Assembly: GCA_020073345.1 (NCBI GenBank)
Contig: JAIQFI010000020.1
Span: 1-64,000 of the forward strand
Length of the DNA stretch: 64,000 bases
Reading direction: 5' to 3'
Source of the DNA: Terriglobia bacterium
GTDB lineage: Bacteria > Acidobacteriota > Terriglobia > Bryobacterales > Bryobacteraceae
Shown: one piece after another, positions 58,927-64,000 of the stretch
How the letters are laid out: each line of letters begins with the position of its first letter
Position numbering within the stretch: position 1 is the stretch's first letter
The notes under the pieces: generated by a model
Database searches by the model: none
Told to the model about the DNA's origin: nothing
Seen by the model: the letters and a program-made list of their open reading frames with translations, nothing else
Program-made: the position numbers and the translations under genes

Positions 58927-61617
58927 TTATGTTCTCGCTGGATCTTTCCGCTCGGGATCGAAACCCATCTCAGCCACCGCCGCCGCGGCTCGACCGGCGT
59001 CGATCTTGCCTTCGCGCGCCAGGGCCGACAGAGTAGCCTGCACGATCGCTTCCGCCGAAATCTCAAAAAACCTCCGCAGATACTCGCGATTCTCGCTGCG
59101 CCCGAATCCGTCGGTTCCCAGCGAATGCAGCCTCCCCGGCAGCCATTGAGCAAGCTGATCCGGGATGATCTTCATGTAATCCGACGACGCGATGATTGGA
59201 CCGTTCGAGCCTTCGAGCGCCGTCACGATATACGGCGTTCGCCGGGGTTCCGCAGGATGCAAACGGTTCCAGCGCTCCGTCTCGAGTGCGTTCCGGCGCA
59301 GCTCGTTGTAGCTGGTCACCGACCACACGTCAGTGGCCAGCTGATACCGCTCGGCCAGAATCTGCTGGGCCTTGATCGCCTCATTCACCATCGGGCCGCT
59401 TCCGAATAACTGGGCAACCGCTCCACCATTCGCGGCAGGCTTGTACTTATACAGCCCGCGCAGAATCCCTTCGCGGATGTGCTCGCCTTCGGGCATCGGA
59501 GGCTGCACGTAGTTCTCGTTGTAGACGGTCAGGTAATAGAAGCGATCTTCCATTTCCTGATACATGCGACGGATGCCGTCCTGAACGATCACGGCCAATT
59601 CGTACGCGTAAGCCGGATCGTACGTAATGCACGTCGGCACGGTGCTGGCATGCACCGGACTATGCCCGTCCTGATGCTGCAATCCTTCGCCGAGCAGCGT
59701 CGTGCGCCCGGCTGTGCCGCCCATCAGGAATCCCTTGCCGCGCGAATCGGCGAACGCCCAGATCAGATCGCCCACGCGCTGGAATCCGAACATCGAATAG
59801 TAGATGAAGAACGGAATCATCGGCACGCCGTAGTTGGCGTACGCGGTGCCCGCGGCGATGCACGACGCCATCGATCCGGCTTCGGTGATGCCTTCCTCCA
59901 GAATCTGCCCGTCCTTGGCTTCCTTGTAATACAGCAGGACGTTCGAATCGACAGGCGTGTACTTCTGGCCCTGGCTGGCGTAGATGCCACGCTCGCGGAA
60001 CAGCGACTCCATGCCGAACGTGCGAGCCTCATCGGGGACGATGGGCACCACCAGCTTCCCGATGTCGGTCTTGAACAGCGCCTTCAAGATACTGACGAAT
60101 GCAGCAGTAGTAGAGGCCTCGCGGTCGCGCGAGCCGCCAATCGCATCGCTGAAGATTTCGAGCGGCGGCGCCTTGATCTCGATCGGCTTGACCTTGCGCT
60201 CGGGCAGGCTGCCGCCCTGAGCTTCCAGCCTCGCCCGCAGATACTTCATCTCCGGAGACTCTTCCGCCGGCCGGTGGAAATCGATATGCTCGCAGTTCTC
60301 GTCGGTCAGCGGCAGATCGAAGCGGTCCCGAATCTTCATCAGATCGGCGCCACTGAGCTTCTTTTGCTGGTGCGCCGTCATCCGGCCTTCGGCGACTTCA
60401 CCCAGCCCATAGCCCTTGACTGTCTTGGAGAGGATCACCGTGGGCTGGCCCTGGGTCATCATGGCGCGCCGGTAGGCGTTGAATACCTTTATCGGGTCGA
60501 GACCTCCGCGGCGGAGACTCCAGACCTCGTCGTCGCTCATGTGCTCCACCAGCTTGAGCAGTTCCGGATACTTGCCGAAAAATTCCTTCCTGACGTACGC
60601 GCCGTCATGCGCGCGGAAGCTCTGATACTCGCCGTCCACGCATTCATGCATCCGCTTGATGAGCAGGCCGCTCGAATCGCGGGCGAGAAGATCATCCCAG
60701 CCCGAGCCCCAGACCACCTTGATCACGTTCCATCCTGCGCCCAGGAACGCCGCTTCCAGCTCCTGAATGATGTGGCCATTGCCGCGCACCGGACCATCCA
60801 GGCGCTGCAGGTTGCAGTTGACCACGAAGATGAGATTGTCCAGCCGCTCGCGCGAAGCGAGCGTAGTCGCGCCCAGGCTTTCCGGCTCGTCGGTTTCGCC
60901 GTCGCCGAGGAACGCCCAAACTTTGCGGCCAGATTCAGGGATGATGCCGCGGTTCTCCAGATACCGCATGAAGCGCGCCTGATAGATCGCCGCGATCGGG
61001 CCGAGTCCCATCGACACCGTCGGGAACTGCCAGAAGTTCGGCATCAGCCAGGGATGCGGATACGACGACAACCCCGGATGATCGCGCAGTTCGTGACGGA
61101 AATTTTCCAGATGTTTTTCGCTGAGCCGGCCTTCCAGGTACGCACGTCCATACACACCCGGCGAAGCATGGCCCTGGAAGTACACAAAATCGCCCGGCAA
61201 CTTGGTCCCGTCCGGTCCCGGATATGAGCCCCGGAAGAAGTGGTTGTATCCAACCTCGAGCATCGTCGCCAGCGAAGCATACGTCGCCAGGTGGCCGCCG
61301 ATATTGGCGTCGTACTTGTTGGCGCGGACGACCATGGCGGTCGCGTTCCAACGGACCAGGCTCTTGATCCGCCGCTCGATGGCGCGATCACCCGGATAGG
61401 CGACCTCTTCCTCGGGAGGGATCGTGTTGATATATGGGGTATTCCAGCGCAGGGGGACTTGGACGCCCAGGTTTGCCGCGCGCTCCATCAACCGCTCGAG
61501 CAGGTAACTGGCCCGGTCAGGCCCCGCCTCGTCGATCATCTCGTCGAGGGCTTCCACCCACTCGCTGGTCTCCTGGGGATTCAGATCATCAGGAGCGTCT
61601 ACTTTAGCTTTCAACAT
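58927..61617 (-). CDS. aceE: Pyruvate dehydrogenase E1 component, homodimeric type
   Basis: An 896-residue thiamine pyrophosphate enzyme that decarboxylates pyruvate and acetylates lipoyl-E2. The TPP/Mg motif is GDGETDEPES near residue 240, continuing to NLIFVVNCNLQRLDGPVRGNG. Other landmarks are GHASPGVYGRAYLEGRL, FGMESLFRERGIY, RTTLLGEGLQHQDGHS and GTDGFGRSENREYLRRFFE. Length and domain order match E. coli AceE. E2 and E3 genes are not in the window. ATG 61617 lacks a ribosome site (preceded by a C-run) and a TATTTA lies 7 nt upstream. An oxygen-tolerant route from pyruvate would coexist with the KorAB system. Confidence 0.96.
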   Translation of the reverse strand: MLKAKVDAPDDLNPQETSEWVEALDEMIDEAGPDRASYLLERLMERAANLGVQVPLRWNTPYINTIPPEEEVAYPGDRAIERRIKSLVRWNATAMVVRANKYDANIGGHLATYASLATMLEVGYNHFFRGSYPGPDGTKLPGDFVYFQGHASPGVYGRAYLEGRLSEKHLENFRHELRDHPGLSSYPHPWLMPNFWQFPTVSMGLGPIAAIYQARFMRYLENRGIIPESGRKVWAFLGDGETDEPESLGATTLASRERLDNLIFVVNCNLQRLDGPVRGNGHIIQELEAAFLGAGWNVIKVVWGSGWDDLLARDSSGLLIKRMHECVDGEYQSFRAHDGAYVRKEFFGKYPELLKLVEHMSDDEVWSLRRGGLDPIKVFNAYRRAMMTQGQPTVILSKTVKGYGLGEVAEGRMTAHQQKKLSGADLMKIRDRFDLPLTDENCEHIDFHRPAEESPEMKYLRARLEAQGGSLPERKVKPIEIKAPPLEIFSDAIGGSRDREASTTAAFVSILKALFKTDIGKLVVPIVPDEARTFGMESLFRERGIYASQGQKYTPVDSNVLLYYKEAKDGQILEEGITEAGSMASCIAAGTAYANYGVPMIPFFIYYSMFGFQRVGDLIWAFADSRGKGFLMGGTAGRTTLLGEGLQHQDGHSPVHASTVPTCITYDPAYAYELAVIVQDGIRRMYQEMEDRFYYLTVYNENYVQPPMPEGEHIREGILRGLYKYKPAANGGAVAQLFGSGPMVNEAIKAQQILAERYQLATDVWSVTSYNELRRNALETERWNRLHPAEPRRTPYIVTALEGSNGPIIASSDYMKIIPDQLAQWLPGRLHSLGTDGFGRSENREYLRRFFEISAEAIVQATLSALAREGKIDAGRAAAAVAEMGFDPERKDPART

Positions 61618-61687
61618 GGGGGGTTAAATACCAAGGTACCACCCCTGATTGGTGGGTCGCGAGAGGAGAACCCTTAGAGACCTGGCA

Positions 61688-61693
61688 TACACT
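61688..61693 (+). promoter_or_regulatory. Candidate -10 box (TACACT), cytochrome c operon
   Basis: TACACT is separated from the ATG at 61700 by GGATAG. The spacing matches the leaderless pattern seen for other operon-first genes here. Confidence 0.4.
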
Positions 61694-61699
61694 GGATAG

Positions 61700-62113
61700 A
61701 TGCGCGCCCTTCAGATTGTTCTCGGTGTCGTGCTCGTCGTGGGTTTGGGCGCGACGATTTGGATCATGGTCACCTCGCCCACCAGCCAGGTGGCGGCTCC
61801 CAAAGCCGCGCCGGTCGAAACCACCCAGGCGCCGCTGCGGACCGACATTCCCCCGCCAGATACCATCGTTTTCGACAACAAGTACGGCAAGTCGACGTTC
61901 AATCATAAGCTGCACTACGACCGGGTCAAGGGCGATTGCACGGTCTGCCACACCAAAATCTTTCCGCAGTCGCGGGCGCCCATCAACTATGGCAAAGCCC
62001 TGCATCGGGCGGCCGAAGCGAATCAAACCGCCTGCGCGGCCTGCCATCGCGTGGGAGGCACCTCCTTTGCGGCCGACAGCAACTGTGTTAAGTGCCACGA
62101 AGTAAAGTACTAA
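61700..62113 (+). CDS. Membrane-anchored triheme cytochrome c (c7/c3 type)
   Basis: A 137-residue protein with an uncleaved-looking N-terminal helix (residues 4-25), a Pro/Ala/Thr linker and a C-terminal multiheme domain. Three CXXCH sites are at residues 80-84 (CTVCH), 112-116 (CAACH) and 129-133 (CVKCH). Histidines in FNHKLHYDRV and KALHRAAE are candidate distal ligands. The spacing resembles cytochrome c7/class III proteins, which shuttle electrons in the periplasm. It is followed 7 bp later by an ECF sigma factor gene and stands upstream of cytochrome c maturation genes. Confidence 0.9.
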   Translation: MRALQIVLGVVLVVGLGATIWIMVTSPTSQVAAPKAAPVETTQAPLRTDIPPPDTIVFDNKYGKSTFNHKLHYDRVKGDCTVCHTKIFPQSRAPINYGKALHRAAEANQTACAACHRVGGTSFAADSNCVKCHEVKY

Positions 62114-62120
62114 GGGCTCC

Positions 62121-62771
62121 ATGCCCCACACCGAAAAACAAGGGAAGAAAGCCCCGCCCTCAAACGTCTTACCGAATGAGTTGGGCATGGTCCTGGACGT
62201 GGGTCACCGCGACGTGAATCACATTGATGTGATACAGGCCTGTCAACGCGGCGACGAGGATGCGTTTCGTGTGCTCTTTGAAACCCATAAGGATCGGGTC
62301 TACTCGATCGCGCTGCGTTATGCGGGTGAATCGGCGGCCGCGATGGATATCGCCCAGGACACGTTCTTGAAGCTTTTGTCGAGCATCGGGCAGTTCCGTG
62401 GCGATGCCAGCTTCGAGTCCTGGCTGTACCGTCTGGTGGTGAACAGCTGCCTGGATTATCACCGGCGGCGGCGGCGGTTTTTGCCTCTCATGGACGAGGC
62501 GCTCGACATGTTCCGGACGCCGCGCGAGGGCGCTTTAGATGACCTGCTCCGTGAGGAGCAGGAGGAGCGTGTCCAGCAGGTAGTGGCCCATTTGCCGGAA
62601 GAACAGAGGATCGTGGTGGTGTTGCGCTATACGGAGGGCCTCTCGTATGAGGAAATCGCGGAACTGCTGGGTTGCCGCAGGGGCACCGTAGCGTCGCGTC
62701 TGAACCGCGCCCATAAGGCGCTGGAGCGGCGCTTATCGCATCTTAAGCAGGGAAAGGTACGACAGCAATGA
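62121..62771 (+). CDS. ECF-type RNA polymerase sigma factor
   Basis: A 216-residue sigma-70 family factor of the extracytoplasmic function group. Region 2 lies at about 40-120 (DEDAFRVLFETHKDRVYSIALRY, DIAQDTFLKLL, SFESWLYRLVVNSCLDYHRRRRR). Region 4 lies at about 155-205 (LPEEQRIVVVLRYTEGLSYEEIAELLGCRRGTVASRL). A 30-residue N-terminal extension precedes region 2. The stop codon overlaps the start of the next gene as ATGA, the usual arrangement of a sigma factor and its membrane anti-sigma factor. Confidence 0.95.
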   Translation: MPHTEKQGKKAPPSNVLPNELGMVLDVGHRDVNHIDVIQACQRGDEDAFRVLFETHKDRVYSIALRYAGESAAAMDIAQDTFLKLLSSIGQFRGDASFESWLYRLVVNSCLDYHRRRRRFLPLMDEALDMFRTPREGALDDLLREEQEERVQQVVAHLPEEQRIVVVLRYTEGLSYEEIAELLGCRRGTVASRLNRAHKALERRLSHLKQGKVRQQ

Positions 62772-63385
62772 AGAAAGACTGGAATGAGCCCGAACTGAGC
62801 CGGCACCTTGGCCCGGTCAAGGCGCCCGACGAGCTGTGGGATCGCGTGCATGGATCGCACGCCGCAATGCGGACGCGCACACCGTTTTTGCAGAGACCCT
62901 GGACCTGGGTCGCCGCCGCAGTGGCCGTCGCGGGACTGGCCCTGGTCATCAATATCCGGGCGAATCGCACGCTGAGCCTGGAAGAGCTGGCGGTGGCGGC
63001 ACTGGGACATAGTCCGAATCAGCTCAAGTTTCAGTCGCAAGAACCCGTCTCGGTGCGGGCCTGGATCAAGTCCGGAATAGGCCTGGATGTTCCCATGCCC
63101 CCCCAACTCTCGCCCGCGGTTCACCTTATGGGAGCGACCGTCGTTTCCTCCAAAGTTCCGACGGCTGAGGTGTCCTATCGCGTTGGCGATATGAACGTTA
63201 CGCTGGCGATCTCCAAGGCGGATCCGGCCGCCGACAGCAAACACACTTTCGTGCGTTCCGGCTCCTATCACGGGGCCAACTTCACGACCTGGAGTATGCG
63301 CGGCCAGATGTATACTGTGGCCGCCGCCGATGCCCGGGTCGGGTGCCTGCTGTGCCACAATGGCGGAGCGCCGTCCAGGTTGTAA
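62768..63385 (+). CDS. Membrane anti-sigma-like protein with C-terminal CXXCH motif
   Basis: A 205-residue single-pass protein. The cytoplasmic N-terminus has about 43 residues and lacks the zinc anti-sigma HxxxCxxC motif. The membrane helix (WVAAAVAVAGLALVINI) is at about 46-62. The outer domain has RAWIKSGIGLDVPMP, a VSYRVGDMNVTLAIS strand pair and FTTWSMRGQMYTVAAAD, resembling the outer domain of known membrane anti-sigma factors. It then ends in C193-L-L-C196-H197 plus eight residues. That is a canonical haem c attachment site on the periplasmic side. Its gene is translationally coupled to the sigma factor and is followed 57 bp later by ccmE. Confidence 0.8.
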   Translation: MKKDWNEPELSRHLGPVKAPDELWDRVHGSHAAMRTRTPFLQRPWTWVAAAVAVAGLALVINIRANRTLSLEELAVAALGHSPNQLKFQSQEPVSVRAWIKSGIGLDVPMPPQLSPAVHLMGATVVSSKVPTAEVSYRVGDMNVTLAISKADPAADSKHTFVRSGSYHGANFTTWSMRGQMYTVAAADARVGCLLCHNGGAPSRL

Positions 63386-63442
63386 TCGGAGTGGCGGCGG
63401 TATACTGGTATTGGTGAAATGTAGGCGCCGGGAGGAAGTCGC

Positions 63443-63871
63443 ATGAACAAGAACGTCAAGTTCGGGCTGATTATCGCGGTGATTCTGGGCACTTTGGGAT
63501 GGCTCGCGGCCGGAGGCATCAACCAGACCGCTAGCTACTACAAGGAAATCGCCGAACTGGAAAGACTCGGGCCGGATGGGGTCGATAAACGCCTGCGGGT
63601 GGGCGGAGACGTGGAGCTCAATTCGATTACCCGCGAAGGACGCGACGTGCATTTCGTGCTGGTACAGGAGAAAGACGGAGTGAAGCGCCGCCTGAACGTC
63701 ATCTACAACGGAATCGATCCGCTGCCCGATACGTTCAAGGACAACGCACCTTGCCAGGCGCTGGTGGACGGCAAGCTCGGCTCCGATCACGTGTTTCATG
63801 CCACCAAGCTCCAGGCTAAGTGCGCCTCCAAGTACGAAGCCAAGCCGGTGGCTCCGGTTACCCGCGGTTAA
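63443..63871 (+). CDS. ccmE: Cytochrome c maturation haem chaperone CcmE, Cys-type
   Basis: A 142-residue periplasmic haem chaperone anchored by one N-terminal helix (residues 6-24). The OB-fold region has LRVGGDVELNSITREGRDVHFVL, LNVIYNGIDPLPDTFKDN and ALVDGKLGSDHVFHATKLQAKC. The haem-binding site is C127-A-S-K-Y131 (CXXXY) rather than the HXXXY of E. coli. The Cys form is known in archaea and some Deltaproteobacteria. GGGAGGAAG 6 nt before ATG 63443 is a strong ribosome site. It precedes ccmF. Confidence 0.95.
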   Translation: MNKNVKFGLIIAVILGTLGWLAAGGINQTASYYKEIAELERLGPDGVDKRLRVGGDVELNSITREGRDVHFVLVQEKDGVKRRLNVIYNGIDPLPDTFKDNAPCQALVDGKLGSDHVFHATKLQAKCASKYEAKPVAPVTRG

Positions 63872-63890
63872 CTTTTCGGATTTCTAAACT

Positions 63891-64000
63891 ATGGAAAATA
63901 TCGGCGCGCTGGCTATTCTCCTCGCGTTCTGTTTCGCGGTGTACGCGATCATCGGATCGCTGGTGGGCAAATGGGCGCGGCGTCCGTTCCTCGCGCTCAG
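63891..64000 (+). CDS. ccmF: Cytochrome c biogenesis protein CcmF, N-terminal fragment
   Basis: The frame opens at ATG 63891 and runs off the right edge after 36 codons. It reads MENIGALAILLAFCFAVYAI and continues with a helix and WARRPFLAL. This matches the first helix and loop of CcmF, the membrane haem lyase. The position directly after ccmE supports the call. No ribosome site is clear (CTAAACT). Confidence 0.8.
   Translation, partial: MENIGALAILLAFCFAVYAIIGSLVGKWARRPFLAL

Follow-up and report, generated by a model that had tools for sequence, protein, structure and literature searches.

Candidate haem c-bearing anti-sigma factors beside cytochrome c maturation and peroxidase genes in Acidobacteriota

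The sigma/anti-sigma locus

The DNA considered here (the window, 64,000 nucleotides) comes from a Terriglobia bacterium of the family Bryobacteraceae (GenBank assembly GCA_020073345.1, contig JAIQFI010000020.1). It is the first 64 kb of a 97-kb contig (G000:C59; G and L numbers are our handles for genomes and loci) in a genome of 6.2 Mb. The plus strand at the right end of the window carries, in this order, genes for a trihaem c7-type cytochrome, an extracytoplasmic function (ECF) sigma factor, a membrane protein of 205 amino acids, and the cytochrome c maturation (Ccm) proteins CcmE and CcmF. The 205-residue protein is a candidate anti-sigma factor whose outer domain ends in CXXCH, the haem c attachment motif. 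This protein and its relatives are the subject of the analysis. The features of the locus are as follows.

61700..62113, + strand: neighbouring gene of a trihaem c7-type cytochrome (TIGR04257, 44.4 bits)
62143..62168, + strand: predicted ECF promoter of the sigma and anti-sigma genes, consensus GGAAGAA-N15-CGTC, probably reading on into ccm
62187..62771, + strand: ECF sigma factor gene (Pfam Sigma70_r2 and r4_2), start at the ATG of MVLDVG, corrected from 62121
62768..63385, + strand: gene of the candidate single-pass anti-sigma factor, 205 amino acids, with RseB-like outer domain and C-terminal CXXCH
62897..62962, + strand: codons of the predicted transmembrane helix, residues 44-65 (AlphaFold2 helix and hydrophobic sequence)
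63242..63244, + strand: codon of H159, a candidate distal haem ligand suggested by the alignment
63344..63358, + strand: CXXCH motif C193-L-L-C196-H197, invariant in 36 aligned proteins
63443..63871, + strand: ccmE of the Cys type (CXXXY, here CASKY; Pfam PF03100, 68.6 bits)
63891..64000, + strand: 5' end of ccmF, which runs to 65930 on the contig

The original prediction, an earlier reading of this DNA, described a sigma gene translationally coupled to a single-pass protein with this C-terminal motif and followed by ccmE and ccmF on the same strand. All of this is borne out. The two genes overlap (anti-sigma start 62768, sigma stop 62771), the motif is present in the DNA, CcmE is recognised by Pfam, and beyond the window ccmF is followed by ccmH, a gene for a 350-residue protein of unknown role, ccmA, ccmB and ccmC (the later ccm names were assigned by eye from the sequences). 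The trihaem cytochrome gene is indeed upstream, but the reported distance of 7 bp to the sigma gene is most likely a start-codon artefact, since the sigma gene has its own predicted promoter. The most probable start of the sigma gene is the ATG at 62187 and not 62121, because the conserved promoter lies inside the longer open reading frame (ORF); several homologous sigma factors begin at or near MVL. With this start the cytochrome gene ends 73 bp upstream, and the promoter lies between the two genes. The gap between the anti-sigma gene and ccmE is 57 bp.

The anti-sigma protein has one hydrophobic segment (approximately residues 44-65) and a C-terminus reading ...VGCLLCHNGGAPSRL, where C193 and C196 are the sole cysteines and H197 follows directly. 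The outer domain shares its fold with the C-terminal domain of RseB/MucB, the only one of their two domains that matches. RseB and MucB act with RseA and MucA in sigma-E control, and the outer domain of the window protein would likewise bear on sigma release. However, RseB exists apart from the anti-sigma factor, to which it binds in the periplasm (PMC8103513; here and below, statements on cited papers refer to the portions of their text available to us), whereas in the window one small CXXCH domain is part of the anti-sigma factor itself.

At its N-terminus the window protein matches an NCBIfam antisigma model, though weakly (E 0.0039), and it does not match zf-HC2, the Pfam zinc-finger family of RsiW-type anti-sigma factors. 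Relatives do contain zf-HC2 (2 of the 36 rows of alignment A1 and 15 of the 17 rows of alignment A2), and the model of one of them, L153, matches RsiW with Foldseek probability 1.00 but E 0.12. The APxxLW segment of proteins of the window type aligns with the segment that follows the zinc finger in the zinc-finger relatives. A sigma ORF adjoins 94 of the 99 anti-sigma ORFs examined; none was found for L041, L104, L165, L168 and the second ORF of L182. The regular pairing of the two genes, together with the anti-sigma fold seen in a relative, leads us to infer that the N-terminus holds the adjacent sigma factor.

Conservation of the CXXCH motif and candidate haem attachment

Searching with the whole protein, we found relatives in 38 of the 257 genomes of the order, at 40 places including the window; tblastn of the whole anti-sigma protein against genome contigs yielded none. 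Absence of the motif from close orthologues had been named beforehand as grounds for rejecting the original prediction, and 37 of the 40 places have CXXCH at the C-terminus. The other three are L044 (an N-terminal match with another outer domain), L046 (CRKC without histidine) and L049 (a canonical zinc-finger anti-sigma factor). In alignment A1 (36 rows including the window, from which L041 is excluded as it is cut by the contig end) identity to the window protein is 24-58%, and the only invariant columns are P20, C193, C196 and H197. The motif is thus conserved beyond chance, given its presence at 37 of 40 homologous places and the invariance of its three residues in 36 proteins. It is also kept in the shortened or diverged members L045, L048 and L050.

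Three further loci are of separate interest. Short anti-sigma factors beside ccm genes in L115 (8503-8913) and L116 (8194-8736) match the profile in the N-terminal part only and have terminal CQACH and CASCH, respectively. In L046 (8399-8932, genome G042, 71% complete) the sequence is CRKCS; no CcmE was found in this genome, and this may be a natural loss of haem binding.

Wider profile searches covered 399 genomes of the class and 396 of the phylum, sampled evenly from the larger groups. Many zinc-finger anti-sigma factors share the outer domain of the window protein. Among those read, CXXCH is present wherever the match reaches the end of the profile and missing from the C-terminus of the remainder (23 ORFs in 22 control loci); unlike the window protein, these canonical zf-HC2 members have a final helix such as SDLNTKELGDF. 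The 34 zinc-finger loci with CXXCH were selected for a profile match reaching the motif or come from the whole-protein search (L043, L047), and therefore its presence in 34 of 34 is no evidence of conservation. The duplicates L174 (of L120) and L184 (of L162) were removed before counting.

Named records were also retrieved by peptide patterns lying outside the motif. It is present in 20 of 21 of them, from Acidobacteriota metagenome-assembled genomes and three records titled Deltaproteobacteria or Candidatus Binatia (L239, L245, L247). Approximately 14 of these loci are new, while L235, L237, L240, L241, L244, L248 and L254 apparently repeat contigs already sampled; the exception, L254, apparently repeats L168, where the motif is present. 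In a tree of 91 sigma factors, rooted at the midpoint only, two lineages are separated by a long, fully supported branch. That of the window contains 36 window-type loci, three zinc-finger loci with CXXCH and two without the motif, and the other contains 28 zinc-finger loci with CXXCH and 22 canonical ones. Thus the motif accompanies two sigma lineages.

The histidine after the second cysteine is part of the haem c motif and is dispensable for a disulfide. This bears on the main chemical rival of haem binding, a thiol switch, in which periplasmic oxidants would turn the cysteine pair into a disulfide and the resulting conformational change would free the sigma factor. The peroxidase genes described below would suit such a switch, as would OsrA of Bradyrhizobium, which needs cysteine 179, predicted to be exposed to the periplasm, for the response to H2O2 (PMC3420878). 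However, the histidine is invariant in 36 of 36 proteins, the two residues between the cysteines vary widely (27 different pairs in 71 proteins), and in cells that possess a cytochrome c maturation system one would expect an exported CXXCH to acquire haem (PMC3601427). We consider a thiol switch without haem improbable. Another possibility is that the three motif residues, perhaps in a dimer, bind zinc or copper. Cysteine and histidine are able to bind metals, and a copper-responsive ECF factor, CorE, exists (PMC8999054), but the outer domain lacks a fourth invariant ligand in both branches, and the genes that recur nearby belong to ccm or encode haem peroxidases, in a survey that did not look for metal transport genes systematically. 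This makes a metal site very improbable.

Covalent attachment of haem c to the CXXCH of the outer domain is, in our opinion, quite probable. Attachment by System I needs little beyond CXXCH, even on peptides of 12 residues (PMC3601427). A histidine occurs at the place of H159 in 68% of the 37 window-type proteins and 33-34 residues before the first cysteine in 79% of the 34 zinc-finger-type proteins; judging by these alignments, H159 could be the second axial haem ligand. Eleven genomes of the phylum have the motif and no CcmE among the matches listed (G587 explicitly lacks it), and ResB is present in all 11, weakly matched in G843. Thus the motif survives a change of the maturation system.

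Co-occurrence with Ccm genes was also considered as evidence for haem and was rejected. A CytC_asm protein is present in the genomes of 17 of 17 relatives tested and CcmE in 16 of 17 (the exception, G130, has ccmF at a contig start), but CcmE occurs in 231 of the 257 genomes of the order, and so co-occurrence is uninformative at this level.

Promoters and neighbouring genes

The pattern GGAA[GAT]-N17-[CT]GTC, which is looser than the consensus given above, was found ahead of the sigma gene in 31 of 36 window-type loci including the window (mean 0.33 and maximum 2 in shuffled sequences). The same pattern was found in 3 of 31 zinc-finger loci and 2 of 22 canonical control loci. Since this promoter is conserved, the sigma factor probably drives transcription in the direction of ccm. 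Read-through from it into ccm is likely as well, judging from the DNA, since no terminator-like site was found on the plus strand within 61600-64000 and the gap to ccmE is short.

A broad cytochrome regulon cannot be derived from this promoter: the genome of the window contains 10 matches versus 5 for a reversed control, and with a longer -10 element 6 versus 10. As a single case, a copy of the pattern lies just upstream of a gene of the dihaem DUF1592/DUF1588 type in the same genome (L213, G000:C79 near 76523); it is no proof alone, as matches are near the control level.

The expectation that the anti-sigma gene always adjoins ccm genes did not hold. Among 37 window-type pairs, ccmE is directly next in 24 and not in 12, and L039, which is at a contig end, is left out of the count (hence 24 of 36). 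CcmE was not found in the fetched stretches of the 34 zinc-finger pairs with CXXCH. The trihaem cytochrome was dismissed as a conserved partner: only 5 of the 40 fetched loci, the window included, have a homologue close to the pair. One window-type pair without ccm genes (L031, 9835-11238) faces a gene for cytochrome bd oxidase subunit I (PF01654).

In the zinc-finger branch the neighbours are of another kind. A divergent haem peroxidase gene within 2.5 kb was found by phmmer in 14 of the 34 loci with CXXCH, compared with 0 of 23 canonical controls and 0 of 37 window-type loci; the three peroxidase queries came from zinc-finger loci, and distant peroxidases near controls could escape them. The Fisher test gave p 0.0007 for an earlier count made by eye, 13/34 versus 0/22 and not 14/34 versus 0/23, and ignores relatedness. 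The 14 peroxidases comprise eight of the CCP type (seven pass Pfam CCP_MauG; L043 rests on phmmer), four MauG-like dihaem proteins (three with weak NCBIfam MauG matches; L047 rests on phmmer) and two catalase-peroxidases, KatG, both of which pass NCBIfam and have an N-terminal extension resembling a signal peptide. Other cytochrome genes also occur near controls (L049, L181, L183, L184, L185), and so only the excess of peroxidases is claimed.

The pattern GGAAT-N15-17-TGTT faces the sigma gene in 12 of 31 loci of the zinc-finger branch and the opposite direction in 11 of 31; in the 22 canonical controls it was found in neither direction. All 11 divergent copies fall in the 14 peroxidase loci, which points to the peroxidase genes as probable direct targets of the sigma factor of this branch.

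Canonical controls L117, L120, L171 and L184 lie near genes for small cupredoxin-like and twin-arginine-type proteins (assigned by eye), a hint that the whole clade serves electron transfer.

A candidate periplasmic redox or peroxide sensor

These neighbourhoods bear on the signal. One possibility is that the apoprotein tail competes as a Ccm substrate, so that at low haem supply or low Ccm capacity the unhaemed tail would free the sigma factor and more Ccm proteins would be made. Two points speak for this, namely that ccmE is the next gene downstream in 24 of 36 window-type loci and that the promoter ahead of sigma is conserved, and an apocytochrome reportedly acts as a signal in the TorC/TorS case. 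However, the motif is also present in 34 zinc-finger loci whose fetched stretches contain no CcmE, 14 of these face peroxidases, two of which are KatG and not c-type, and the motif persists in the 11 ResB genomes mentioned above. Such a measure of maturation capacity is possible for the ccm-linked lineage of the window, and as a general explanation we regard it as unlikely. Of the original proposal of haem-linked control of cytochrome genes, the coupled pair and its Ccm locus stand, and sensing of Ccm capacity in particular is less probable, in view of the ResB genomes and the peroxidases at 14 of 34 loci.

The peroxidase neighbours, together with the occurrence of the motif in genomes with either System I or ResB, fit better with a haem-based sensor of redox state or peroxide. 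As KatG is not c-type and its presence argues against sensing of maturation alone, peroxide or redox state is the simplest common signal; most likely, the protein responds to a periplasmic oxidant or to the redox state of the haem. With a probability of about 0.6, we propose that the window protein is a periplasmic haem c anti-sigma sensor of redox state or peroxide that controls cytochrome c maturation here and has counterparts controlling peroxidases elsewhere, the haem itself being part of the proposal.

The regulatory mechanism may be as follows. The periplasmic domain, similar to the C-terminal domain of RseB/MucB, would bear covalent haem c on its last helix, and the N-terminus would keep the adjacent sigma factor at the membrane. 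A change of the haem (oxidation, binding of peroxide or another ligand, or failure to receive haem) would alter the outer domain and release the sigma factor. The free sigma factor would then read its own conserved promoter at 62143, leading to more sigma factor, more anti-sigma factor and, by probable read-through, more of the downstream ccm products. In the zinc-finger branch, the same kind of switch would drive the divergent haem peroxidase gene.

With similar confidence, we suggest that these proteins form a phylum-wide class of anti-sigma factors, also occurring in genomes titled Deltaproteobacteria and Candidatus Binatia, that sense the periplasm via covalent haem c on an RseB-like domain and work with two ECF lineages, one wired to ccm and the other to periplasmic haem peroxidases. 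If true, this would be the first haem c anti-sigma factor known to us; to our knowledge, the ways in which bacteria adjust cytochrome c maturation to demand are poorly understood. If haem is present, periplasmic redox state or peroxide would be coupled to sigma factors in a new way, for which a promoter and probable targets are predicted. In agreement with the original prediction, no anti-sigma factor of this kind was found in the literature on haem and cytochromes in anti-sigma or sensor proteins, the ECF re-classification (NAR 2021) not being covered, and none with CXXCH in the available parts of PMC12889525, PMC3601427, PMC8999054, PMC3420878, PMC7406223 and PMC8103513.

The closest parallel is the sCache_heme/DUF3365 family (Tll0287; Geobacter GSU0582 and GSU0935), described in a preprint (PMC12889525). 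As in the window protein, an older extracytoplasmic sensor fold has gained a short helix that bears a near-invariant CXXCH, and there are relatives without the motif. However, this family has the Cache fold and is stand-alone or part of kinases, chemoreceptors and cyclic-di-GMP enzymes, the routes by which the haem c sensors described there act, whereas the window protein has an RseB-like fold that ends an anti-sigma factor. The main text of PMC12889525 uses neither the word anti-sigma nor the term sigma factor. DUF3365 (PF11845) is matched neither by the window protein nor in the family lists of alignments A1 and A2. If the proposal is true, the window protein would be a second example of an older sensor fold extended by a helix with CXXCH. 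Another comparable system is OsrA-EcfF of Bradyrhizobium, with a membrane anti-sigma factor, needed cysteines, a response to peroxide and an autoregulated sigma factor (PMC3420878). OsrA has six predicted membrane helices, in contrast to one in the window protein, and neither CXXC nor heme is mentioned in the available text of that paper.

Two observations concern the ccm genes themselves. The CcmE of the window has CXXXY (CASKY) and not the His form, and CASKY is present in 24 of the 25 CcmE proteins of the fetched loci, the 25th (L048) being cut by a contig end; this is the Cys-type System I, also named System I*. In the longer ccm loci compared, a conserved protein of approximately 330-380 amino acids and unknown role is encoded between ccmH and ccmA; on the contig of the window it occupies positions 66749-67801 (L051, 9749-10801).
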